DNA of 30,294 nt from positions 1 through 30,294 of IMG/VR virus record IMGVR_UViG_3300025853_000429, one strand, 5' to 3'. How positions within the stretch are numbered: position 1 is the first letter of the stretch; every line of letters begins with the position of its first letter. Below the pieces are notes generated by a model. It saw nothing but the letters and a program-made list of their open reading frames with translations, was not told the origin of the DNA and made no database searches. This document shows positions 4,476-25,478 of this stretch, piece after piece. The position numbers were made by a program, and so were the translations under genes. This DNA is from a virus.

Positions 4476-4700
4476 ATGGCTGACGAGAAAGTAGACAACA
4501 TTCCAGATAAGGAAGCATACCAGATTAATCGCCGACTTATGTGTTGGGCTGCGCTTGCGTTAATGGGTGTTACTGTAGGTTTTGTCCTAATAAATCCATC
4601 GTCGTATAGTAATGCTCCAATAGGTCCAATCTTTTATGGGCTATCTGGATTAGTCGCGGTATATTTTGGTGCCACTAGTTTCACTCAAGCAAAGAAGTGA
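4476..4700 (+). CDS. Small two-TM protein, candidate holin
   Basis: The 74-residue product has a charged N-terminus (MADEKVDNIPDKEAYQINRR), two hydrophobic helices (about 22-41 and 49-68) joined by a short polar loop (NPSSYSNAPIGP) and a short basic C-terminus (TQAKK). Size and topology match class II holins or other small phage membrane proteins. An AAGGA Shine-Dalgarno-like motif lies about 8 nt before the ATG. It closes the first membrane-protein cassette, and its stop codon (4698-4700) directly abuts the parS-like palindrome. A separate set of holin-like genes sits beside the lysozyme near 22.7-23.4 kb, so this may be an antiholin, a second holin or unrelated to lysis. Confidence 0.5.
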   Translation: MADEKVDNIPDKEAYQINRRLMCWAALALMGVTVGFVLINPSSYSNAPIGPIFYGLSGLVAVYFGATSFTQAKK

Positions 4701-4716
4701 TGTTTCACGTGAAACA
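4701..4716. promoter_or_regulatory. parS: Exact canonical parS-like palindrome (ParB/Spo0J binding site)
   Basis: The 16-bp perfect palindrome TGTTTCACGTGAAACA equals the consensus chromosomal parS site bound by ParB (Spo0J) in bacteria such as Bacillus, Caulobacter and Vibrio. It starts immediately after one stop codon and lies in the only intergenic gap (30 nt) of this part of the late operon. It is followed by TTTTT, so a six-pair stem with an ACGT loop plus a T-run could also act as a weak intrinsic terminator. No parA or parB gene is visible, so host ParB would be the likely binder. The sequence match is direct observation; function as a centromere site is inference. Confidence 0.7.
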
Positions 4717-4730
4717 TTTTTAGGTGCTAG

Positions 4731-7055
4731 ATGCTACAGAAATTGACCTTCAAGCCCGGAATAAATAAAGACCTTACCCGATACGCTGGTGAGGGCAGTT
4801 GGTTTGACTGTGATAAAGTTAGATTTGTAAATGGACTACCTCAAAAAATGGGTGGTTGGGTTAAAATTAACTCGACAGCATTTTCTGGGGTTTGTCGCTC
4901 TCTGTTTAACTGGTCAACTCTTAGCGGCCAAGACTTAATGGGTATAGGAACCTCGAAAAAGTTAATACTTGAAGAGGGTGGCGGAATACATAATGTGACG
5001 CCTTTGAGAATATCAAATTTCACCCTTGGCTCTAACCCATTCCAGACCTTAACTTCTGGCACAGGAACTTTGAATGTTACTCATACTGGGCATGGCGCTG
5101 CGGTAGGAGACACTGTAATTTTTGCTGCGGCTGCCACTTTTGATGGAATTACGGCTGCTCAAATAAATACTGCTCATGTCATTACGCAAATAATTGACTC
5201 AAACAATTATTACATAGTGACAACCGGTTCGTCGTCTTCTGGCTCTACGGCTGGGGGTGGCTCGTCTGTTTTAGCTTCTTACGAAATTACGGTTGGCGCG
5301 GCGACGAGTGATTCAGGAGGTCTTGGTTGGGGCGCAGGTCTTTTTGGCGGTACTGTTTCTGGTAAAACAACAACAACGCTCTCTGGTGGTATTAACGATT
5401 CAGCCACAACTATTCCTCTGACAAGCGCTACGGGCTTTGACACGGCTTCGACAACGCTATCAGCGATCTTGCAAATCGGTGACGGGGAAATGAGTGTTGC
5501 GTCGGTCTCCGGCCTTCCTTGGATTGGTATAGTAAAGATTGGTACTGAGCAGATTAAGTACGAGAACGTAGATACCACTAACAATAAAATTTCTTCTTTA
5601 ACTCGTGGTTTTAACGGGACAACGGAGGCAGCGCATTCTTCAAGCGCTTCGGTTACTTATGTCGGAACCATCGTGATTGACAACGAGATTATTACATACA
5701 CTGGCGTCTCGACTAATGACCTGACAAGTGCTGTGCGCGGTCAGCTTGGCACTGATAATGTTGCTCACGATTCCGGTGCAACAGTTGTCGAATCAAACGA
5801 GTTTGTTGGTTGGGGTTCGGGGGTGCCGGTGGAGACAGGCACAACCGAGACTATAACCGTTCGTCTATGGCGTCAGGACAACTTTGGTGAAGATTTGTTA
5901 GCCAACATTTACGGTGGCGGTATTTATTACTGGGACGCAAGCTCGGGTTTCGGTAACAGGGCAGTGGAGCTTTCTAGTCTTTCCGGTTCCTCCGGTTGCC
6001 CTACAGCAGCGCGTGTTATCCTTGTTTCAGACAATGACAGGCATGTTGTTGCCCTTGGCACCACCGATCTATCGAGTGGAGGATTTGATCCTCTTTTAAT
6101 ACGTTGGGGCGATCAGGAGTCCTTAACTCAGTGGACCCCCTCGACGACAAATACAGCCGGTGATCTTAGAATCAATAATGGCTCAGAGATTATTACTGCG
6201 CTTGAGAACAGACAAGAAATACTCGTTTGGACAGACAGAAGCCTTCATTCTCTAAGATTTGTAGGCTCACCCTTTATTTTTGGTCAAACCCTTCTTTCTC
6301 AAAATGTCACAATTATAGGCCCAAATGCCCATGTGGCAGTCGGGGATACGGCGTTTTGGATGGGTACAAATAATTTCTATGCATACGATGGTCGTGTAAC
6401 GTCAATACCGTGCTCTGTACGCAATTTTGTTTTCCAAAACATGAATTTCGGTCAACGCAATAAGTTCTTTGCGGGCAGCAATTACGAGTTTGGGGAAGTT
6501 ATATGGTTCTACGTTTCGAGTGACGCGACAGAAATTGATAAGTACGTCATATACAATTTTGTTGAAAAGGCTTGGTATACAGGTTCTCTTGAAAGAACAG
6601 CTTGGATAGATCGAAGCCAGCGAGAGTTTCCGAATGCCGCAAGCTCTGATGGATTCTTGTACTCGCACGATAATGGATTTGATGATGGGAGTCAGAATCC
6701 TCCAGCACCCATAACAGCTTTTATAGAAAGTTCTGATTTTGAAATTGGAGACGGGGATAGGCTTCAGTTTGCCTCTAGAGTAATTCCCGATTTGAGCTTT
6801 AACGGATCGTCTGCTTCGGCCCCTGCCGCAACCTTTTCTTTTCTCCCGCGTAATTTTCCCGGCCAATCTTTCGGCACATCGTCGTCATCTACGGTAACCG
6901 CTAGTCAGACTGTTGATGTAGAGCAGTTTACAGAACAGGCATTTATAAGACTCAGAGGCAGAGAGATGTCGGTTAAAGTGCAGTCAACCGAAGAGGGCGT
7001 GTTTTGGCGCTTGGGTGCTCCGCGCATAGATATTCGACCTGATGGGAGAAGATAG
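4731..7055 (+). CDS. Virion protein resembling P22 gp10-type packaged-DNA stabilisation / tail adaptor protein
   Basis: The 774-residue product begins MLQKLTFKPGINKDLTRYAG followed by G.WFDCDKVRFVNGLPQKMGGW, a signature I associate with the head-completion 'stabilisation' proteins of podoviruses (P22 gp10 type), which plug the portal vertex and contact the tail. Later motifs fit the same family: LYDWR-like ILEEGGGIHNVTPL, DNDRHVVALGT near residue 440, RWGDQESLTQWTP near 460 and a WTDRSLHSLRFVG segment near 505. An insertion of about 90 residues (265-354) holds two copies of an I-x-Y...RG..GT..AH.S.A.V module. The start has an AGGTG motif a few nt upstream, just past the parS-like site. The stop overlaps the next start (TAGTG). 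Role by family analogy; no enzymatic site. Confidence 0.65.
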   Translation: MLQKLTFKPGINKDLTRYAGEGSWFDCDKVRFVNGLPQKMGGWVKINSTAFSGVCRSLFNWSTLSGQDLMGIGTSKKLILEEGGGIHNVTPLRISNFTLGSNPFQTLTSGTGTLNVTHTGHGAAVGDTVIFAAAATFDGITAAQINTAHVITQIIDSNNYYIVTTGSSSSGSTAGGGSSVLASYEITVGAATSDSGGLGWGAGLFGGTVSGKTTTTLSGGINDSATTIPLTSATGFDTASTTLSAILQIGDGEMSVASVSGLPWIGIVKIGTEQIKYENVDTTNNKISSLTRGFNGTTEAAHSSSASVTYVGTIVIDNEIITYTGVSTNDLTSAVRGQLGTDNVAHDSGATVVESNEFVGWGSGVPVETGTTETITVRLWRQDNFGEDLLANIYGGGIYYWDASSGFGNRAVELSSLSGSSGCPTAARVILVSDNDRHVVALGTTDLSSGGFDPLLIRWGDQESLTQWTPSTTNTAGDLRINNGSEIITALENRQEILVWTDRSLHSLRFVGSPFIFGQTLLSQNVTIIGPNAHVAVGDTAFWMGTNNFYAYDGRVTSIPCSVRNFVFQNMNFGQRNKFFAGSNYEFGEVIWFYVSSDATEIDKYVIYNFVEKAWYTGSLERTAWIDRSQREFPNAASSDGFLYSHDNGFDDGSQNPPAPITAFIESSDFEIGDGDRLQFASRVIPDLSFNGSSASAPAATFSFLPRNFPGQSFGTSSSSTVTASQTVDVEQFTEQAFIRLRGREMSVKVQSTEEGVFWRLGAPRIDIRPDGRR

Positions 7056-13415: not shown

Positions 13416-16400
13416 ATGGATGTAACGCTTCCAAACGGGCGTGTTATTAGCGGCGTCCCTGACGGCATGACTCAGGATAGTCTTCGGGAAATTGCGATCA
13501 AAAATGGCCTCGCTACCGCCGAAGACTTTGCCTCCGTACAGCCAGCCCAGCCCGCAGGACAGCCAACGGCTGCTCAGTCTGAAGAGTTTGAGGGCAACTA
13601 CTTCCTTACTGGTATAGGGCGCGGCGTTGATGTTCTACAGGAAGGTTATGGCTCTGCCATAGAGGGCTTTGGTGGTGTTTTTGACCTTCCGGGTGTTGAG
13701 CAATATGGCGCTGATGTTGTTGCTGCTCAGAAAAAACAGTTAGAGGAAACCTCTGCTGGTGCTTTGCAGACTAAAGATATTAAGGAGAAGGGCCTCCTTA
13801 GCTATATATCGGCGACTTTGGGCGCTCAGGTTCCGCAGCTTGGTAGCACTCTTGGCGGTGCCTATCTTGGCGGCAAGGTCGGCGGAGGGATCGGCGCTGC
13901 GTTTGGCGGCGTTGGCGCTATTCCCGGAGCACTTATTGGCAGCGTTGTCGGCGGTATAGCGGCCAACCTTCCGTTTTTCTACGGATCAAACCGAGAAGCT
14001 CAGAAGCAGGAGATTGCTAAGGGTAACCGCGTGGAAGTAAGCGAGAGCGCAGCTATTTTAGCAGCGGGTCCCCAAGCCCTTCTTGATTATATAGCAGACC
14101 GATTCCTTATTGGCGGACTAACTCCGAAGGCCATCAGGCAGGGTGGTCTCTTTACAAGAGGCATAAAGGGGGGAACCGCTGGCGTAGTGACTGAAGTTCC
14201 AACTGAAATTGGGCAGCAAGTTCTTCAGCGCCTTCAAGCTGGGCAGGACCTTACTAGCGATGAGGCTATGGATGAGTATTTTGAGGTCGCGGTTGCCGCT
14301 GGTCTCGTCGGTGGCACAGTCAGAGGAGGAACAAGTATATTTCAAGGCCGCGTAGAGGATGATGCTCCGCCGCCACCTAAAACTGAAGATGAGCTTGCAG
14401 CCGATGCTGCTGCCGTTTTCAACGAAGATACTGAGCCTCTTGCGCTTCCTGCGCCCGAAGAAACCCCTCTTCTTCCTGATTTCTCCAACGAAGGGGTCCC
14501 GATTGTCGATCCAGATGTTGATATTGGAAGTCTTGTTGATGGCGTTGTTTCTAATTTCTCTTCTGACCTGCCTCTTTCTTTTAATAAAGGGAAGGTCGTC
14601 GTAACTGACGATGTTGGAACACCAGCCTCTTACGAGGTCGCATCTAGCTCTGATGGTATATTTGTTGTTTCTAAACAGGGTGTCCGGGTTTCCCCCAATT
14701 TCTCTTCTACGGAACAGGCGGCTGAATTTCGTGACCGGCTGAATGTGTCCGTTAACGAGATGATGGCTGTTCAGGATGAAGTCGAAACACAGAGACAGGC
14801 TACAGAGGCTGTAAAGCGGGCCAAACTTGAGGAAACGGGCGCAACACTGGAAGCGGCGAGAGCAACCCTATCCTCGCCTTCTATTGATTTCTCCTCTATT
14901 CCGGGGGACGCAGCCCAAGCGATAAATGTTAAGAGGACCCAGACTGGGCGCAGTACACTTGGCGCTCAAGACACAGTAACCCTTGAGGAACTCAGTGATA
15001 ACAATGTCTCTCAGGAGGTAATCGACGGTCTGTTACCCTCCTCCGAAGCGGCCACCGTCGAAGATGTGCGTTCTGCTGCCGCGTCTAAAAACATTTTGGT
15101 TGAAGACGCTGGCTTTGAGCGCTTTGCCCGCAGAAATACTGGCTCCGCAAACATAGAGAGAATGTCGCCTACTCAGCTTGGCTACATGATCGACGCTATC
15201 GAGGGGCTGCCAGCGATACCCGGTGAAACCGCACAGGCACTGCCTGTTATCCAAACACCCGAATTTACAGGCCCTCAGTACAGCGCAACCATATCTCTTG
15301 CTAAACGCAAGGGCGAGGAAGGTGTTCTAAAGTCTGAGGTTTCCAAGAACATCGATATGAAACGCGGTGCTCCCACGCAATCCCTGATACAGGCTGGCTT
15401 GGATCGTGGCGATCTTGTGCCGCATCCCACAAAAAAGAATAGGTGGGTCAGTAGGCAGTTCTACGAAGAGAGACTTAATAGACCCCGTACACCTCTAGAG
15501 AGAGGCGAACAGGTAGAGGCAGAGGCCCGCGCAAGGGAAGAGCAAGCGCAGCCAGAAATGCCAGCCCGTGAGACCCTTGGCCCCGGCATTATCGTAGAAA
15601 CCACGCGGGAAGAGGGTGATACGCGCTCTATCCCTGAACGTAGCAGGGAATTCCAAGAACGTCTTGGAGAGACCACGCCCACGCCCGAGGCCCTATCCAG
15701 ACGCGAGGAGATACAGCAATCCCTCACTGATGAGCTTAACAGGTTTGCTGCTAGTCCCGCTGGTAGGGCGGCAAAACTGGATGCCAGCAAGATCGGCGTT
15801 GAGATTGTTGATTCAGTAACGACTGGGGCGGGGACAAGGGCAGAGGGCCAGCTACTCGCTGACGCTGACAGCGGTAAGGTAATTATTCAACTAGCTTTGG
15901 ACACGGCTCAAGAGGGCGCAGCAACTGACGCACAAGTTAAAAATAACCTCAGAGATGTCTTCAATCACGAAGTGGTGCACGCTCTAAAAGCGCTAGGCGT
16001 TATCAACGAAGCTGATATGGCATCACTCGTTAAGTACTCAAAGAACGCCCGTATAAAAGGCTCGAAGAAAACGATTTATCAAGAGATCGTAGAGAACTAT
16101 ACGGAAAAGAATGTCGGACGCCAACTCTCTAAAGAAGAGCTTGAAGAAGAGGCGGTTGCCGATGCTTTCCGTTACTGGGCTGCTGGTCAACTCAAGGTCA
16201 CCGGCAAGCCTAAGAGCATATTCGACCGCATTGTGCGCTTCTTCCGCAGCATTGGTTCCGGCCTAAGCAACGCTGAAATAACATCTGCCGAGCAAATCTT
16301 TAATAATCTACGCGCACCGATTGGTGCACGGTCTGCTCCCGTTGCTCCTGCTAACAGAGAAGCCGCAAGACAGGCAGAGGCGGCTGCTGCTGCCGAAGGC

Positions 16401-19400
16401 ATGGATGTGCCAGATGCGCCAATAGATGCGTATGAGGGGAAGTATTCTCTATACCCCGCACAGTTGGATGGTCTGGCGCAAAAAATTATGGGCGTCGAGA
16501 CTGTGCGAGAAGGGAATATTGTTCGCCGCTTCAGGGCTACCGATCTCCCCGCCGCAGTGAAGCAAAGGCTGCGCTTAAACAAAGAGCAGAAGAAGGCTCT
16601 AGATCGACAAAAAGCAGCTATAGACGGCAAGTATTCTTTGGCAAGAAAGCCTATTGATCCAAAAGACCCGGTCTTTTCTTCGCGTGACTCAAAACATGAT
16701 AACGCAGAAGTAGCGGGTAAAGCGCTACCTCCACGAGGTAAGGCGCGTCGTCTGTCTGTCCTCGACCTCCTGTACAATGACAATCTCCTGCCCCGAACTG
16801 GAAGCAGCACTGGGTACGTTGCCCGACTGTTGCAGGAAAGGTCGAGAAAGGTTTTGAGCGGCAAGCCGGTGGCTATCGAATCGGACACAAGCAAGGACGG
16901 ACTGCTTTCTGATGTGTTCGCTGCTGAGGCTATTGCCGCTCTTGAAGAGACAGGCAACGCGGCGACTTGGTACAGCGAGAAAGTTACGGAAGCCATTGAG
17001 GTGGCGTCTCAGTTGTACCCTGAGATAGCGACTGATGCTGATGCCCGTTTTGCTTTTCTGGCAGCCCTCTCGGTAACAAGCCAGAACACTCCGGTTATGG
17101 AGAACTCGGTCTATACGTCAGAGGTGTATGAGTATTTCCGTGAGAACCAGCGCTTCCCTGAGGACTTCTCAAAAGGCAAGCACGGCAAGTCTATGGCGAG
17201 TAATTTCGCTCTTTTGAACGATCTGTTGGACACTATGGGTCCGCAAGGTGTTCGAGCCTTCTTTGATAAACAGTTTACAGTTAAGCAGTTAAAGGATGCT
17301 GGTTTTAAGCCGCCGAGTGGTGAGAACGTAGACACCGTTGTTTACGGGTCTTTTCTGCTTGGCCCCAAAATCGGTCAGGGTTTTTATCAAAACCTGAACG
17401 GGAACTTCTCTCCGGTCACTATCGATATGTGGCTGATGCGGACTGTTGGTCGGGCAACTGGTCGATTAATCGGCAAACCTGAAATTGTTGAAAAACAAGC
17501 AGACAGGCTGCTAAAGGGGCTTAACGCCGATCCAGAAAAGAGCCGCAACAATTTCTTGATAGCCTCCATTCGGGATGCACAGATTGATGGCGACCTTGAC
17601 GCTTTGGTCGAGGTAGCTGATGAGCTTCGTCTGGAGCATGACCGTCTCTTTCTGACACCTGAGGTACAAGCACTATTCCGTCAGAAAAAATACAATAAGC
17701 CCGAGTGGGCAAAGGCTGCTGAAGCAATCATAACGCAGCAAAACAAGCCTCAGGATGCCCCATCCGGGGGCAACTTCCGAAATGCTGTTCGCCGCATTAT
17801 GGACAAGACGCGCCAAAAGATGGCCGACAGTGGGTATGACGTAACCAACGCGGACCTTCAGGCTATTCTTTGGTATCCAGAGAAGAATCTGTACAAGAAG
17901 TTGGGCGTTCGCACGAAAGATAACCTGAACATTGATTACGCTCAGGCGTTTGAAAGAATTTTAGAAGGAAGGACTGAGTTAGATGCCGAAGGAAATGTTT
18001 TACAGCCCGTGGGGAGAGGGGTCGGAACAGAAACCGCCGATGTCACGGGAAGAGCAGAAGAAGATGGTCTCGAACTTGATGAAATTACGTCCGGTGAAGG
18101 GGCCGGATCAGACCCCGGAAGACCAAAGTTCTCGTTAGCTCCTCAACGTGAAACCCCGGAGAACACTCTTCTTAACTTTATCAAGCAGAACCCTGAAGGC
18201 TTTACCGTCACGATTGACGGTCAGCCCGCCCCTGCTGGCTACGTTGTCGCTCCCGTAAAGGCTGCCGAGATAACTGTTAAGGCTGATGAGCTTAACGCTG
18301 ACTCGGTGCGCGAATACGCAGAAATCTTGAAGGATGTTGCGGACTCGACAAATCGCGAGACCTACGCTGGTGGGTGGCTAAACTCCGAAGATGGCCTGTA
18401 CTACCTTGATGCAGTCCATATTTACGATGAGCTTGACACCGCACTCTATATTGCTGATAGTGCAGAACAGCTTGCTATATTTGACCTAAGGACATTCGAT
18501 GAAGTCAGAACCCCAGAAGGTATCGAACAACTCAAATCGGCTGGAACTTACAGCGATCAAGCCCGGAATGAGCGTGGAAGAGATTCAGACCAAGCTGCTC
18601 GAAAGTATGCGGAAATCCGCGCAGACAGAGGTCCGAAATTCAGTCTCTCAAGAGAGCAGTTAACAGAGAGAGACAGCTTCTCTCGGTACAACGAACAGTT
18701 CAGTGTACCGATTGATGCCTACGAGGCATCGAGCTTATCTAGAGTAACATCTCCAAGTCCTCACTCCGAGAACGGCTCTCATAGGATTTTGTTTGGCAAC
18801 AAAGCCTTGACCGTCTTTGTGCCGAAGGGCTTTGACAAGTTTAGTCGTAATCGTGACAAGACCTTTGGTTTCGGCCAAAGGCATATGGTGAAGCACGATG
18901 TAGAGGCCTCCAAGCGAACAGGGGGTACCTATAACAGCATAGCTGATCTTGCCACAGCCGCCTTAAATGCATATTGGCCGCTCAGGAATAACTTAGGGGG
19001 AAGCCCGTTTAAGGTAACTGAGGTGCAAGGCGCGACGGGCAGTCCTCAGATGAGGATGGAGTGGAAGAACGAAAGCTCTGGATACCCTGCCGTATTTATT
19101 TTTGAGCCGTTCTACGTCTCGACCGTTATGCCGGGTGTCGCTCAAAAGAATCCGAATTTAGCAAACACACAGGTCATGTACCTGAAGAACGGTTTTGTTG
19201 GCGCTTCTGATGGTAAGAGCAGCAGCCCCGTACCTCAGCCAGCTATTCGAGTAAAAGACCGCACTCGTGAGATGGAAGTTTCTATCCAGCGGGGAATGGC
19301 TAACGCTGTCTCCGCACAAGAGAGCGCAAAAGTTGAACGCGAGGTTCTTACACTCAAAAGAAAATATAGCCTGAAGCGCAGTGAGGACAATCTCTCTCCT

Positions 19401-22310
19401 GACGCTAGAAAGATTTATCAGGATCGTATTTCTACACCAGAAGATCAGACATTCTTTCAGCGGATAATGTCTTCTTTTGATATGAGTGACCCAAGCAAGC
19501 GCTCTGTGATGCTCAAGATCAGGCGTAACATAGCTGATAACTATGCTGGTGCTCGTGCGATGGGCAAGAGGGCGCAAGAAATTGCCGATATCAATGCTGA
19601 GGCTCAAGTCAATTCAGCAATCGGTCAGCTTGAGAGAAAGCGCGGAGTTGTTGCCGCTGGTTTGAATATAGGCCCGCTTGTAAGGTTTGGCGGTCAAGTC
19701 ACTGCCATCAATGAGAACATTGTTGAGAACCTTGAGAACGATCAAGCCCGTGCAAAATTCCAAGCTGCGTTTGATCGTTTACAGCAAGAGACGCAGTACA
19801 TAGAAACTGACCCCGTGACTGGGGAGCAGACTGTTGTTCGCTACGAAAGCACCGCAGACCTCAAAGGTTTAGCGAAAATTTTTGAAGAAATTGAACAAGA
19901 AGGTCTTTGGGCTGGTTTTAACTTGTACGCTGCGGCTAAAAGAGCCAACAGGCTCATGACAGAGGGGCGTGAAAAAACCTTTACTCAGGAAGAGATCAAT
20001 CTCTCACTTGAAGAGGGGGCCAAAAACCCGGCGATTGTGCGGGCGTATCGAAACTACCAGCTTTGGAATAATGCTTTCGTTGGGGTTATGGAAAACTCCG
20101 GTGTGATCTCAGGCGAAGCGGCGCAACTGTGGAAAGACAATTCGGACTATCTTCCGTTCTATCGTCAAGCCTTTGAGAATGAAGGTGCCATTTATGACAT
20201 ACCGACCGCTCAGGAAACGGCAAGCGGAGATGTTATCTTCACTCCCGATGGGGCGTCTCCTAACAACAGTGTGCTGCAAAATGTTTATAACATTAAGGCT
20301 CCTAAAGAACTGAAGGGTGGCAAGCCGTTTTACTTTGTGATGGTGAATAACGTATCTGACAGTAAGTCCTATACGAACGCCGAGGACGCTGCCACTCGGT
20401 TAAACGAACTAAGGAAAATGAACCCGAGGGCAAAGGTTGGTCTAGCAAAGAGCAATCAGCGCATTGACAACCCAATCAACAACATACTCAGAAACTTCGA
20501 CGCTGGTGTAACATCTGTTCTGACTAACGTGGTCGCGTCACGCGCTGTTCGAGACCTTCAACGTCTTGGTCTTGCCCAGAGAATTCCCACTCCCAATAGA
20601 GTGGAGCCGACGCCTGATGTCGTAGGCATTCGTGTTAACGGAGAGACAAAGTACTACAGGGTGCAGGACGAGCTTCTTCTTGCTTCGTTGGGAGCCACTG
20701 GCGACTTCCAGATGCCGGGTCTCGACCTCATGGCTGCACCAGCAAACCTCCTTCGTGAATTGATCACGAAAGACCCCGGATTTATGGCAGCAAACATGCT
20801 GCGTGACTCTGTGTCCGCTTGGACAACTTCGGGAGTCACCAAGATACCGGGACCCAGCACAGTTGCCGGGTTTGTCAAAACAATTGCAAAAGATGCCAGC
20901 GCTGAGGCTTTGGAGGCCTCTGGGGTGGTTGGTGGCTACGATGCAAAGCAGGACAAAGAAGCTGTAAAGCTGTTCAAAAAAATCAACAGGCAGCGAGGAC
21001 GCGGTGGACTCAGTCCTATAGCTTGGTGGGATAAGTGGGACAAGTTGTCCTTGGCCTCAGACACCGCAACCAGAGTCGCTGTCTACAATCAAATCTTAAA
21101 AGACACGGGTGGCAATATAGCCGCAGCCAATACCGAAGCTCTAGATGTTATCAACTTTAGCCGCAAAGGCTCTTCTCATGGCATCCGCTTCTTCTCTGCC
21201 GTTGTCCCATTCTTGAACGCTCGTATTCAGGGCCTTGACGTTCTTTATCGTAGTGGGGCGCGAGGCGATGTGGGAACTACATCATCTATGACCAAAGCGC
21301 AAAGGCAACGGCGCTTCTTCATGAGGGCATTGGCAATCATATCTATGTCCACCGCGTATGCTATGGCGTCTATGGATGACGAGGACAACGAGTGGTACCA
21401 AAACGCTACTGAAGTAGACAAGGATAACTACTGGATTATTCCGCCTACGTGGCTTGGTCTCGACACAACTCCTGACACCCCGGCCCTCAAGATACCCATT
21501 CCTTTTGAGGTTGGTGTTCTCTTCAAGGTTGTCCCGGAAAGGATCGTGCGTACCGTTCGTGACGACACGGGAATGTCAGGGAACTGGGGCGCTTTTCAAC
21601 GCCACTTTATGGGGACATTCGCTATTAACCCGGTTCCTCAATTTATGCTGCCAATCGCAGAAACAGTGGCTAACTTTGATTCCTTCACGGGCAGACCTGT
21701 CGTCACCTATTGGGATGAAAAGAGAGAGCCTTATTTATCTAATCCTGATTACGTCTCACCTTTAGCCATTGAGACTTCTAAAGGAATTTCCGATAAGTTT
21801 AACATTCGCGTTCCCGCAGAGAATATCGATCATTTGGTTCGTGGATACACCGGAACCTTAGGCAGCTATGCCCTTATGGCAGCAGATGGCATCATGAGGT
21901 CTGCCGCTGGTATGCCTGATAGGCCCGCGAGAAGGCTGGATCAGTATCCTGTCCTCAGCCGTTTCCTACAGGAAGGTCAGGGAACTGGGCCTGTGGAGTC
22001 TTTCTTTGATATTTACCAAGAAGTGATGCTTTTCTCTAGTTCAGTTAGCGAATATGAAAATACGGGTAGGCTTGAAGAATTAGATAAATACATTGGACAG
22101 AGACAGAATGTGGCTCTCGAAGCAGATTACATCAAGAGTTTGGCTGAATCGTTGAAAGAACTCCGACGCTTTAGAAAACAGGTTTCCACTGACCCTGTGA
22201 TGAGCGCGGATGACAAAGCGGACTACTTCAAAGAAATACAGACCCAGATGAATGAGATTGTCTCTGAAATAACCAAAGACAAAGAGAGAATAATTCGGAG
22301 GACTGACTAA
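13416..22310 (+). CDS. Giant polyvalent virion protein (2,964 aa) with zinc metalloprotease motif and LPD38-like C-terminal domain
   Basis: A single uninterrupted frame with several modules. Residues 1-45: small domain (LPNGRVISGVPDGMTQD). About 132-189: Gly-rich hydrophobic stretch, possibly membrane-inserting. About 618-690: winged-helix-like segment. Residues 851-855: HEVVH zinc motif with candidate third ligand E912 in EAVAD, a gluzincin pattern. About 1075-1480: DUF7178-like helical domain (LSVTSQNTPV, IDMWLMRT, ILWYPEKNLY). About 1580-1735: domain with VHIYDELDTALYIADS..QLAIFDL. About 1760-1960: possible nuclease-like or toxin-like domain (GFGQRHMVKHD), unassigned. About 2440-2800: LPD38-type region (LLRELITKDPGFMAANMLRDS, FFSAVVPFLNARIQGLD). 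Recurrent K[YF]SL tetrapeptides separate modules. Polyvalent proteins are packaged and injected with phage DNA; position after internal-core genes matches T7 gp16. The stop overlaps the lysozyme start (TAATG). Individual domain calls are less certain than the overall class. Confidence 0.75.
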   Translation: MDVTLPNGRVISGVPDGMTQDSLREIAIKNGLATAEDFASVQPAQPAGQPTAAQSEEFEGNYFLTGIGRGVDVLQEGYGSAIEGFGGVFDLPGVEQYGADVVAAQKKQLEETSAGALQTKDIKEKGLLSYISATLGAQVPQLGSTLGGAYLGGKVGGGIGAAFGGVGAIPGALIGSVVGGIAANLPFFYGSNREAQKQEIAKGNRVEVSESAAILAAGPQALLDYIADRFLIGGLTPKAIRQGGLFTRGIKGGTAGVVTEVPTEIGQQVLQRLQAGQDLTSDEAMDEYFEVAVAAGLVGGTVRGGTSIFQGRVEDDAPPPPKTEDELAADAAAVFNEDTEPLALPAPEETPLLPDFSNEGVPIVDPDVDIGSLVDGVVSNFSSDLPLSFNKGKVVVTDDVGTPASYEVASSSDGIFVVSKQGVRVSPNFSSTEQAAEFRDRLNVSVNEMMAVQDEVETQRQATEAVKRAKLEETGATLEAARATLSSPSIDFSSIPGDAAQAINVKRTQTGRSTLGAQDTVTLEELSDNNVSQEVIDGLLPSSEAATVEDVRSAAASKNILVEDAGFERFARRNTGSANIERMSPTQLGYMIDAIEGLPAIPGETAQALPVIQTPEFTGPQYSATISLAKRKGEEGVLKSEVSKNIDMKRGAPTQSLIQAGLDRGDLVPHPTKKNRWVSRQFYEERLNRPRTPLERGEQVEAEARAREEQAQPEMPARETLGPGIIVETTREEGDTRSIPERSREFQERLGETTPTPEALSRREEIQQSLTDELNRFAASPAGRAAKLDASKIGVEIVDSVTTGAGTRAEGQLLADADSGKVIIQLALDTAQEGAATDAQVKNNLRDVFNHEVVHALKALGVINEADMASLVKYSKNARIKGSKKTIYQEIVENYTEKNVGRQLSKEELEEEAVADAFRYWAAGQLKVTGKPKSIFDRIVRFFRSIGSGLSNAEITSAEQIFNNLRAPIGARSAPVAPANREAARQAEAAAAAEGMDVPDAPIDAYEGKYSLYPAQLDGLAQKIMGVETVREGNIVRRFRATDLPAAVKQRLRLNKEQKKALDRQKAAIDGKYSLARKPIDPKDPVFSSRDSKHDNAEVAGKALPPRGKARRLSVLDLLYNDNLLPRTGSSTGYVARLLQERSRKVLSGKPVAIESDTSKDGLLSDVFAAEAIAALEETGNAATWYSEKVTEAIEVASQLYPEIATDADARFAFLAALSVTSQNTPVMENSVYTSEVYEYFRENQRFPEDFSKGKHGKSMASNFALLNDLLDTMGPQGVRAFFDKQFTVKQLKDAGFKPPSGENVDTVVYGSFLLGPKIGQGFYQNLNGNFSPVTIDMWLMRTVGRATGRLIGKPEIVEKQADRLLKGLNADPEKSRNNFLIASIRDAQIDGDLDALVEVADELRLEHDRLFLTPEVQALFRQKKYNKPEWAKAAEAIITQQNKPQDAPSGGNFRNAVRRIMDKTRQKMADSGYDVTNADLQAILWYPEKNLYKKLGVRTKDNLNIDYAQAFERILEGRTELDAEGNVLQPVGRGVGTETADVTGRAEEDGLELDEITSGEGAGSDPGRPKFSLAPQRETPENTLLNFIKQNPEGFTVTIDGQPAPAGYVVAPVKAAEITVKADELNADSVREYAEILKDVADSTNRETYAGGWLNSEDGLYYLDAVHIYDELDTALYIADSAEQLAIFDLRTFDEVRTPEGIEQLKSAGTYSDQARNERGRDSDQAARKYAEIRADRGPKFSLSREQLTERDSFSRYNEQFSVPIDAYEASSLSRVTSPSPHSENGSHRILFGNKALTVFVPKGFDKFSRNRDKTFGFGQRHMVKHDVEASKRTGGTYNSIADLATAALNAYWPLRNNLGGSPFKVTEVQGATGSPQMRMEWKNESSGYPAVFIFEPFYVSTVMPGVAQKNPNLANTQVMYLKNGFVGASDGKSSSPVPQPAIRVKDRTREMEVSIQRGMANAVSAQESAKVEREVLTLKRKYSLKRSEDNLSPDARKIYQDRISTPEDQTFFQRIMSSFDMSDPSKRSVMLKIRRNIADNYAGARAMGKRAQEIADINAEAQVNSAIGQLERKRGVVAAGLNIGPLVRFGGQVTAINENIVENLENDQARAKFQAAFDRLQQETQYIETDPVTGEQTVVRYESTADLKGLAKIFEEIEQEGLWAGFNLYAAAKRANRLMTEGREKTFTQEEINLSLEEGAKNPAIVRAYRNYQLWNNAFVGVMENSGVISGEAAQLWKDNSDYLPFYRQAFENEGAIYDIPTAQETASGDVIFTPDGASPNNSVLQNVYNIKAPKELKGGKPFYFVMVNNVSDSKSYTNAEDAATRLNELRKMNPRAKVGLAKSNQRIDNPINNILRNFDAGVTSVLTNVVASRAVRDLQRLGLAQRIPTPNRVEPTPDVVGIRVNGETKYYRVQDELLLASLGATGDFQMPGLDLMAAPANLLRELITKDPGFMAANMLRDSVSAWTTSGVTKIPGPSTVAGFVKTIAKDASAEALEASGVVGGYDAKQDKEAVKLFKKINRQRGRGGLSPIAWWDKWDKLSLASDTATRVAVYNQILKDTGGNIAAANTEALDVINFSRKGSSHGIRFFSAVVPFLNARIQGLDVLYRSGARGDVGTTSSMTKAQRQRRFFMRALAIISMSTAYAMASMDDEDNEWYQNATEVDKDNYWIIPPTWLGLDTTPDTPALKIPIPFEVGVLFKVVPERIVRTVRDDTGMSGNWGAFQRHFMGTFAINPVPQFMLPIAETVANFDSFTGRPVVTYWDEKREPYLSNPDYVSPLAIETSKGISDKFNIRVPAENIDHLVRGYTGTLGSYALMAADGIMRSAAGMPDRPARRLDQYPVLSRFLQEGQGTGPVESFFDIYQEVMLFSSSVSEYENTGRLEELDKYIGQRQNVALEADYIKSLAESLKELRRFRKQVSTDPVMSADDKADYFKEIQTQMNEIVSEITKDKERIIRRTD

Positions 22311-23455: not shown

Positions 23456-24154
23456 ATGAGCGCTCTATTTATCGAACGGCTGTTGCAGCCTTTGTACAGA
23501 CGGTTCTCGCTGTGGGGAGATTTCGCAACTCAGCCGACGCATCTCTATCGTGGGACGAAGGACCTCGAAAATAATTTCGATGTCATCCGCGCTGAGTATG
23601 ACCAGATAATCAAGCGATATGATGATTTCGCGCCGTTTCAAGAAATATCCCCTCACCAGACGTACATATCTAATGACGACAAATGGCGTCTATTCTTTTT
23701 GAAGGGGGCGGGGCTTTGGTTTCCTAGAAACTGCGAACAGATGCCCAATACGGCTAAGATAATTAAACGCAATAAAGAGATCGTAAGCGCTTACATATCT
23801 GTTCTGGGACCGCGAAAGAAGCTAGAGCCTCATGCTGGACCGTATTCCGGTGTGCTTAGGCTTCATCTTGCGCTTGATATACCGCACCAACAGAGGTGCT
23901 ATATCGATGTGAAAGACGAGAGGCTTCACTGGAGCGAGGGAAAGTGCATCATGTTCGATGACACATATATACATTCAGCAGTCAATAATACTGACAAGCT
24001 CAGGTCTGTTTTGTTCATCGATATAGTGCGGCCTCTACCATTTCCATTGCATGTGATAAACTTGGCAGTGATCAGAATGGCTCGTTTGTTTTCGTATGTG
24101 CGGATACCCTTAGCGAACCACAAGAAGTGGCAGAAAGTCTTTTACGATGGCTAG
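23456..24154 (+). CDS. Aspartyl/asparaginyl beta-hydroxylase-like 2-oxoglutarate/Fe(II) dioxygenase
   Basis: The 232-residue product resembles the Asp_Arg_Hydrox family: KGAGLWFPRNCEQMPNT (about 83-99), then SVLGPRKKLEPHAGPYSGVLRLHLALDIP (about 115-143), then WSEGKCIMFDDTYIHSAVNNTD (about 158-179) and RSVLFIDIVRPLP. The two Fe(II)-binding histidines are probably His126 (EPHAGPY) and His173 (YIHSAVN), and Arg183 is the likely 2-oxoglutarate ligand. Members hydroxylate Asp or Asn side chains of proteins or modify lipid or peptide substrates; the substrate here is unknown. A C-terminal hydrophobic stretch (LHVINLAVIRMARLFSYV) may be a membrane-association helix. It sits at the end of the late/lysis region as an accessory gene. 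It overlaps the next gene by 8 nt. Confidence 0.82.
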   Translation: MSALFIERLLQPLYRRFSLWGDFATQPTHLYRGTKDLENNFDVIRAEYDQIIKRYDDFAPFQEISPHQTYISNDDKWRLFFLKGAGLWFPRNCEQMPNTAKIIKRNKEIVSAYISVLGPRKKLEPHAGPYSGVLRLHLALDIPHQQRCYIDVKDERLHWSEGKCIMFDDTYIHSAVNNTDKLRSVLFIDIVRPLPFPLHVINLAVIRMARLFSYVRIPLANHKKWQKVFYDG

Positions 24155-24371: not shown

Positions 24372-25208
24372 TCAGGCGGCTATCGTGAGTTTTGACACAG
24401 CGTTGTTTAGGTAGTCGGGCGAGAACTTAGCGTAGACCTTTTCCGTTATCCGACTGTCTTTGTGACCCAGCAGCTTTGCCACCTCAATAATTGGTACCCC
24501 ATCGCGCACAAGGTTCGTCGCAACAGAATGACGAAGAACGTGTGGGGTCACGCCTTCCAAGCCGCAATCCTCAAGAATGTTCGCCCACGCCTTTCGCATA
24601 TCACGAATGCGTCTGCCGTTGTTGGAGATGACATACATACTATCACGGTCTATCCCCGACAGGAGCGTATGCATCTCTGACGAAATCGGTATCACTGCGC
24701 GGTTCTTGCGTCTGTTTCTACGGTCGTGCTTGTCCCTGAAGTCGATCACCCCTTCCTTCCAGATCACTTGAGGCCACTGAAGAGACAGGATTGCCTCCTT
24801 GCGCTGCCCGGTGAGCAGGGCGATAGCGACAAAAAGAAAGACATGCGGGTACCTTTTTGAGGCTTCTAGGAATCGAAGACACTCCTCCTTATCAAGCCAC
24901 ATCTTCCTTGGCTCAGGCTCAGGTAGTCTTTTGATAACAATTACGCGGTCAATTATTCCTTCCGCGTTTGCCCATCTCAGTGCTGCGCTCAATACACCCA
25001 ACTCTCGATTGACTGTACCGGCACTGGCGTCTCTCTTCTTGGTGTAAGCGGAGACATGCTTGCCGCTTAATTTGTGGATTGGAATGTCTCCGAAGTGAGG
25101 GGCTAACCTCTTCCAAGCGATAGATGCTCGTTTGTGGTCGATAGCTACATGATCAACATGATCAGAAATATACCTATTTACGACCTGCTCCACTGATGTT
25201 ATTTTCAT
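24372..25208 (-). CDS. int: Tyrosine recombinase (phage integrase)
   Basis: The 278-residue enzyme catalyses site-specific integration and excision. An N-terminal SAM-like core-binding domain (1-95, with TVNRELGVLSAALRWANAEG) precedes the catalytic domain. Catalytic residues visible are Arg136 (LLTGQRKEAI), probably Lys168 (RRKNRAVIP), His223-x-x-Arg226 (TPHVLRHSVAT), His249 (LLGHKD) and the nucleophile Tyr259 (VYAKFSP). All key positions are intact, so the protein should be active. No long arm-binding domain is present. It lies at the far end of the leftward early operon and converges with the late operon with no bases between the stops. Its presence implies a temperate lifestyle; the attachment site was not identified. 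Confidence 0.95.
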   Translation of the reverse strand: MKITSVEQVVNRYISDHVDHVAIDHKRASIAWKRLAPHFGDIPIHKLSGKHVSAYTKKRDASAGTVNRELGVLSAALRWANAEGIIDRVIVIKRLPEPEPRKMWLDKEECLRFLEASKRYPHVFLFVAIALLTGQRKEAILSLQWPQVIWKEGVIDFRDKHDRRNRRKNRAVIPISSEMHTLLSGIDRDSMYVISNNGRRIRDMRKAWANILEDCGLEGVTPHVLRHSVATNLVRDGVPIIEVAKLLGHKDSRITEKVYAKFSPDYLNNAVSKLTIAA

Positions 25209-25251: not shown

Positions 25252-25278
25252 GGGGAGGCGTCTAGTCAACGCCTCCCC
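25252..25278 (+). terminator. GC-rich hairpin with T-rich flank on the + strand, candidate rho-independent terminator
   Basis: A perfect ten-pair stem (GGGGAGGCGT / ACGCCTCCCC) with a seven-base loop is followed on the + strand by TTTATCTT. On the - strand the flank is AAAG, so it would work best against rightward transcripts, that is, late-operon read-through crossing the integrase gene. It overlaps the stop codon of the HTH gene and lies in the 57-nt gap before the integrase gene. Confidence 0.5.
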
Positions 25279-25478
25279 TTTATCTTGTGAACGTCGATCT
25301 CATATCCCAGTTCACTGAACCATTTTTCGACTGTGCTAAAGGCAACATTCGTCTTGCCATTTTCAAAATTAGCTATTGTGCTGGCGCTAGTGCCTGTAAG
25401 AGAAGCAAGAACCTCTCTCGACAAAGGGGCTTCTTTTCGCAGAACCTGAAGTTCTGTGCAAAGCCAGTGGATGTTCAT
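25266..25478 (-). CDS. Small XRE-type helix-turn-helix regulator
   Basis: The 70-residue product has a classic helix-turn-helix: SREVLASLTGTSASTIANFENG (about 20-41), with T-G-T-S-A-S-T-I as turn and recognition helix and the NFENGK consensus after it. The remainder (STVEKWFSELGYEIDVHKIKGRR) resembles short HTH_XRE or HigA-like DNA-binding proteins. It could be the phage repressor, a Cro-like protein or a regulator of the neighbouring integrase. It starts on an ATGA overlap with the RHH gene, so the two are probably co-translated. No dimerisation or protease-cleavage domain is present, unlike CI repressors. Confidence 0.78.
   Translation of the reverse strand: MNIHWLCTELQVLRKEAPLSREVLASLTGTSASTIANFENGKTNVAFSTVEKWFSELGYEIDVHKIKGRR

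Follow-up and report, generated by a model that had tools for sequence, protein, structure and literature searches.

A stretch of 30,294 nucleotides from a virus record, IMGVR_UViG_3300025853_000429 (the window, analysed at its full length), contains an exact copy of the chromosomal parS. This copy is probably a genuine orphan host-type site, carried by a phage without a ParB or ParA of its own, through which host ParB, and perhaps ParA or SMC, would be recruited to the phage DNA. At the sequence level, this reading is supported by the exactness of the site, the absence of par genes, the enrichment of the site in viral records and, in a sister clade, its conservation as a single copy with a shifting position. 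The phenomenon reaches well past the window: a whole clade of marine relatives carries one exact copy.

The site, TGTTTCACGTGAAACA, is a 16-bp palindrome identical to the consensus chromosomal parS, which is also written as TGTTNCACGTGAAACA (PMC7022226), and a scan of the whole window finds it once. Its first base follows immediately on the TGA stop codon (4698-4700) of an upstream 74-aa ORF, and 14 nt separate its end from the ATG of a 774-aa ORF; the gap between the two ORFs is 30 nt long and belongs to the late operon. Between 2563 and 7055, this gap is the only one exceeding a couple of bases. The features concerned are as follows.

4476-4700, plus strand: 74-aa ORF, small and membrane-protein-like, whose stop codon abuts parS
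4701-4716, no strand assigned: parS, exact match to TGTTTCACGTGAAACA; in context, GATGTTTCACGTGAAACATTTTT
4717-4730, plus strand: TTTTTAGGTGCTAG, spanning the interval from parS to the 774-aa ORF and containing a T-run and a likely ribosome-binding site (AGGTG)
4731-7055, plus strand: 774-aa virion structural or 'stabilization' protein (phrog_3287), the first gene 3' of parS
24372-25208, minus strand: tyrosine integrase, a marker of temperate phages
25266-25478, minus strand: Cro/C1-type helix-turn-helix regulator

An exact match to a 16-mer is expected by chance about 7e-6 times per 30 kb (length/4^16), and at up to three mismatches the window holds two matches, against 0.18 expected in shuffles. 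The site differs from the Noc-binding site (NBS, TATTTCCCGGGAAATA) at the A in position 2 and the C in position 7 of the NBS. Across viral sequences, the gene for the 74-aa membrane-protein-like product is present at 35 loci, mostly with different genes after it, and is a small mobile gene of late operons. In 32 of these 35 loci parS is absent from the whole locus at up to two mismatches, the three exceptions being near-identical copies of the window phage.

The window phage is a temperate podovirus and is present in three further records (G001, G003 and G004), all of which carry the parS. The longest of these, G004, is 54 kb long and 99.98% identical, and there too the site is single-copy. 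It encodes a terminase, an SU10-type portal, a capsid protein, a structural operon, a holin, a C1-type regulator and the tyrosine integrase, together with a Sak annealing protein and a primase-helicase. The late region includes an LPD38-domain protein of 2964 aa, of the large polyvalent protein type, whose gene extends over nearly 9 kb (13416-22310), and a protein with an aspartyl/asparaginyl beta-hydroxylase domain lies just 3' of the holin gene (23456-24154). Outside the window, the same phage encodes a DUF2201 metallopeptidase/VWA-like protein (L182:11844-13112), which adjoins a protein with a weak DUF3150 match, under the family cut-off (L182:13124-14065), as in MoxR-type modules. By terminase, the closest cultured phages are DSL-LC04 and HTVC023P-type pelagiphages, while the integrase, helicase and terminase matches are scattered across many hosts. 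A search of GTDB genomes with the 774-aa protein finds no lysogens. In nine of 14 bacterial assemblies with related phage contigs, parS matches are found that in each case include one or more exact copies; some of these sit on the phage contig itself.

Searches for segregation genes detect no ParB_N domain (PF02195) in G000-G004 and, in the copies of the window phage including the 54-kb G004, no ParA-type ATPase (PF13614) and no HTH_ParB (PF17762) above the cut-off. The parB and parA genes that define a phage-plasmid ParABS system on the same replicon are thus not found in the window phage. A phage with a host-type parS but without a ParB gene therefore probably borrows the segregation machinery of its host. 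The original prediction had described an exact parS at 4701-4716, very unlikely as a chance match, directly after a stop codon in the sole short gap of this stretch and with no parA or parB visible; all of these points are borne out, the last also elsewhere in the phage.

A gene-order search through the 774-aa protein yields only one divergent relative that shares the order of the window, G002, with about 78-80% DNA identity. At the same place, G002 has TGTTTCACATGAAACA, in which 15 of the 16 bases are kept and the central CG is changed to CA (G to A, giving CACATG). Conservation in the lineage of the window while the flanks diverge is thus seen as 15 of 16 bases in a single divergent relative. 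Since 60% of the 4-fold sites in the 774-aa gene differ between the two phages (40% identical), such retention appears unlikely under neutrality if the 4-fold rate is used (P about 1e-5), but it is not significant alone at the overall identity of 78% (P about 0.10). The CACATG centre may lower the affinity for ParB and would leave a hairpin unaffected. Two sister-clade members, L418 and L419, show the same CACATG/CATGTG variant at the position occupied by the exact parS in their siblings. Homologues of the 774-aa protein at 28-45% identity are without the site. As for the palindrome at the syntenic position in relatives, to which the original prediction had pointed, the outcome is mixed: the one divergent relative keeps nearly all of it, with a changed centre.

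The relatives closest by terminase lend some weight to the view that the match in the window phage alone is an accident, independent of the general phenomenon. In the 80 viral loci nearest to the window TerL (64-86%), 820 kb of DNA contain no exact parS and two one-mismatch sites, the reversed control giving none. The site is sporadic among these relatives, most of them being without it in the DNA examined, and G002 is mismatched at the centre. Even so, the minute number of exact matches expected by chance, the intergenic location, the retention of 15 of 16 bases in G002 against a background of saturated 4-fold sites and the over-representation of the terminase family of the window phage among parS-bearing viral contigs make an accident most improbable. 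Whole records of three of the TerL relatives contain accepted parS variants: TGTTCCACGTGGAACA is found in G104 as one copy and in G110 as two at a distance of 39 bp, and TGTTTCACGTGGAACA occurs in G107, with no control matches in the same search. The cultured Pelagibacter phage HTVC027P, which has neither a ParB nor an integrase, carries CGTTTCACGTGAAACA, one mismatch from parS, at 16412-16427 (L476:1913-1928), in the intergenic region between gp31 and gp32. A blastn query of cultured phages with the 16-mer between N flanks gives no match, such a short query being under the sensitivity of BLAST.

At least 120 viral records contain an exact parS. Requiring a flanking G still gives at least 120 records, and 25 of the first 120 exact-parS records listed fall in this subset, from which a total of about 576 or more is extrapolated. 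The reversed palindrome of the same composition is found in one viral record, and a control with the same hairpin stem and the centre swapped (TGTTTCAGCTGAAACA) in 33. The placement of the sites is also distinctive: 42% of 146 parS sites lie inside ORFs and 58% outside, against 83% and 17% of random positions, and the same-stem control lies inside ORFs in 32 of 33 cases (97%), as expected at random. In whole-record searches of the first 90 parS records, ParB_N is missing from 86 and matched in four, one of the four below the cut-off. A parS without parB is therefore common on viral contigs, many of the records being fragments and some possibly host DNA.

Homologues of the window phage (terminase, portal, capsid or a neighbour) are present in 45 of the first 120 parS records and in none of the 33 control records. 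Among the 120 listed contigs, 34 have a homologue of its terminase, 30 of its portal and seven of its capsid, and in many of these parS lies within about 150 nt upstream of terL. Mis-sorted host DNA was considered as the source of the parS contigs and is ruled out for these 45; some of the others could be host DNA. Three contigs (L036, L063 and L072) contain three to five exact copies within about 1 kb, an arrangement unlike that of the single-site clade; their terminase is distant (about 28% identical), and no ParB_N is found in them.

The sister clade (alignment A2, TerL about 57% identical to that of the window phage) was sampled by TerL similarity and picked because it contains parS contigs, so that the 63 of 80 loci with an exact parS, against none for the control patterns, give the rate within this clade and not among phages at large. 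Within 400 nt upstream of terL lie 49 of the 63 sites, and the rest are about 1,050-1,960 nt upstream. Where 3 kb of upstream DNA is available, 34 of 39 loci hold the exact site, and L463 has it elsewhere in its record. Each of the ten long records (31-57 kb) has exactly one site at up to two mismatches and no reversed control. In 33 distinct upstream sequences, which were selected for the exact site, the 16 positions are constant while the neighbouring bases vary. The long records have no ParB_N, no ParA, no tyrosine integrase and no HTH_ParB over the cut-off.

Other conserved blocks accompany parS upstream of terL in L392-L471 (for example L392:1237-1356), with GGGCCATGTTTCTCACAAATA upstream of the site and CTTGTTAACTG and GTGCATATT downstream; these blocks look like regulatory or packaging-related elements. 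Such an intergenic setting upstream of terL, beside other conserved blocks, could also be seen if a DNA-binding protein encoded by the phage, for example a regulator or a packaging factor, used the palindrome and its identity to parS were mimicry or convergence. We regard this as highly improbable, since all 16 bp are those of the host consensus, relatives carry accepted host parS variants, unrelated viral contigs also bear parS and no ParB-type helix-turn-helix protein is found above the cut-off. Furthermore, the position of the site shifts, from about -110 to -1058 relative to terL or to elsewhere in the record.

The site lies upstream of terL in the sister clade and in a late-operon gap in the window. 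The position of the window phage outside the sister clade makes a separate acquisition of its site plausible. The TerL tree requires 23 gains or losses of the parS label, 17 of them forced by well supported branches, which suggests repeated gain and loss; the tree is only suggestive because a site may be wrongly scored as absent from a fragment and the presence of parS was the ground for including some of the rows.

The original prediction offered a terminator as its alternative; in a reading of this kind, the palindrome would be a weak transcription terminator or an RNA-processing hairpin between two late genes, and the match to parS accidental. The sequence can form an 8-pair hairpin of -6.8 kcal/mol followed by TTTTT, and G002 retains the stem, its single change being a loop base. 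However, on the sense strand this energy is within the ordinary range of shuffled sequences (z -1.6), and the hairpin falls short of an intrinsic terminator, its six-pair core (TGTTTC/GAAACA) having two G-C pairs. A terminator scan of the window does not list the site, and RNA-family and terminator searches return nothing. The T-run is interrupted in G002 and absent after the site in the sister clade, where the loop bases are invariant. The control palindrome with this stem occurs in far fewer viral contigs than parS does and is genic in its placement. On these grounds together, a terminator or processing hairpin is quite improbable.

Dimers of ParB nucleate at the parS sequence and then form sliding CTP clamps, recruiting ParA and SMC. 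Plasmids gain stability from chromosomal par operons that have a single parS (reviewed in PMC7022226), and ParB gathers on a parS borne by injected lambda DNA (PMC13190303). In view of these properties, host ParB should load on the DNA of the window phage, provided that the host has a canonical ParB. For an orphan host-type parS, we infer ParB binding, spreading and a benefit to the phage as follows. Host ParB would load at parS during infection, and in any extrachromosomal stage preceding integration; the loaded ParB would close into CTP clamps and slide over adjacent phage DNA, bringing ParA and/or SMC along. The likeliest benefit would be the positioning, partition or resolution of unintegrated phage DNA by the host machinery, and such an extrachromosomal function, whether through ParB, ParA or SMC, fits all cases. 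The core of the original prediction, a host-type parS without parAB that recruits host ParB, is well supported by the very large enrichment over controls, the intergenic placement and the strict 16-bp conservation in the sister clade; the mismatched centre in G002 counts against it. Its reading of the site as an ectopic parS of a prophage does not stand as a general function: upkeep of an integrated prophage is excluded as a purpose common to all, since no tyrosine integrase is seen in the clade with the best conservation of the site and an obligately lytic lifestyle is described for HTVC027P (PMC12753301).

Retention of the site by these relatives without an integrase, the one-mismatch site of HTVC027P included, would also suit a decoy, in which replicated phage copies titrate ParB, and SMC with it, off the host chromosome and block segregation or division in lytic growth; replication turns one site per genome into many. 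Titration would not favour the strict single copy of all ten long sister-clade records, however, and among the matches listed arrays of several sites are confined to a few other contigs. A centromere requires no more than a single site per genome, so a centromere-like role is favoured and a decoy appears unlikely. We would give about an even chance to a broader proposal, that orphan host-type parS is a widespread and repeatedly acquired viral element, exactly one copy of the host centromere being kept by lytic and temperate phages to have their DNA organised, placed or separated in infection by host ParB-CTP clamps and SMC. This would be a layer of phage-host interaction new to description.

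ParB-parS is the main segregation system of bacteria, and phages with their own version of it were known, but to our knowledge none with a bare host site. No published report of parS on phages without ParB was found in the literature searched, subscription papers and preprints being outside its scope. That phages in which no tyrosine integrase is seen conserve one host parS would imply that recruitment of ParB/SMC matters during infection itself, and orphan parS phages would provide natural small replicons on which ParB clamps and SMC could be studied.

Each of the known systems resembles the viral site in one respect and differs in another. The chromosomal parS, the nucleation site of ParB/Spo0J, has the identical 16 bp and is likewise palindromic and mostly intergenic, but it lies near the bacterial oriC, whereas the viral site is found within a late operon or ahead of terL, in a single copy and without parAB on the replicon. 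The ParABS systems of phage-plasmids (P1, N15, Mic1 and mycobacteriophages) also give a phage genome a centromere-like site, which presumably serves extrachromosomal phage DNA; these phages encode their own ParA and ParB with plasmid-type sites, whereas here none is found and the site is that of the host. XerCD-dependent filamentous phages borrow host chromosome-maintenance factors, and in both cases a short cis-site gives viral DNA the use of such a protein; XerCD acts in recombination at dif, whereas the predicted factor of the window phage is the ParB clamp. The engineered lambda-parS with CFP-ParB is similar in that ParB assembles on a phage-borne parS after injection, but that site is an artificial label with ParB supplied by the experimenter (PMC13190303), while the site in the window is natural.
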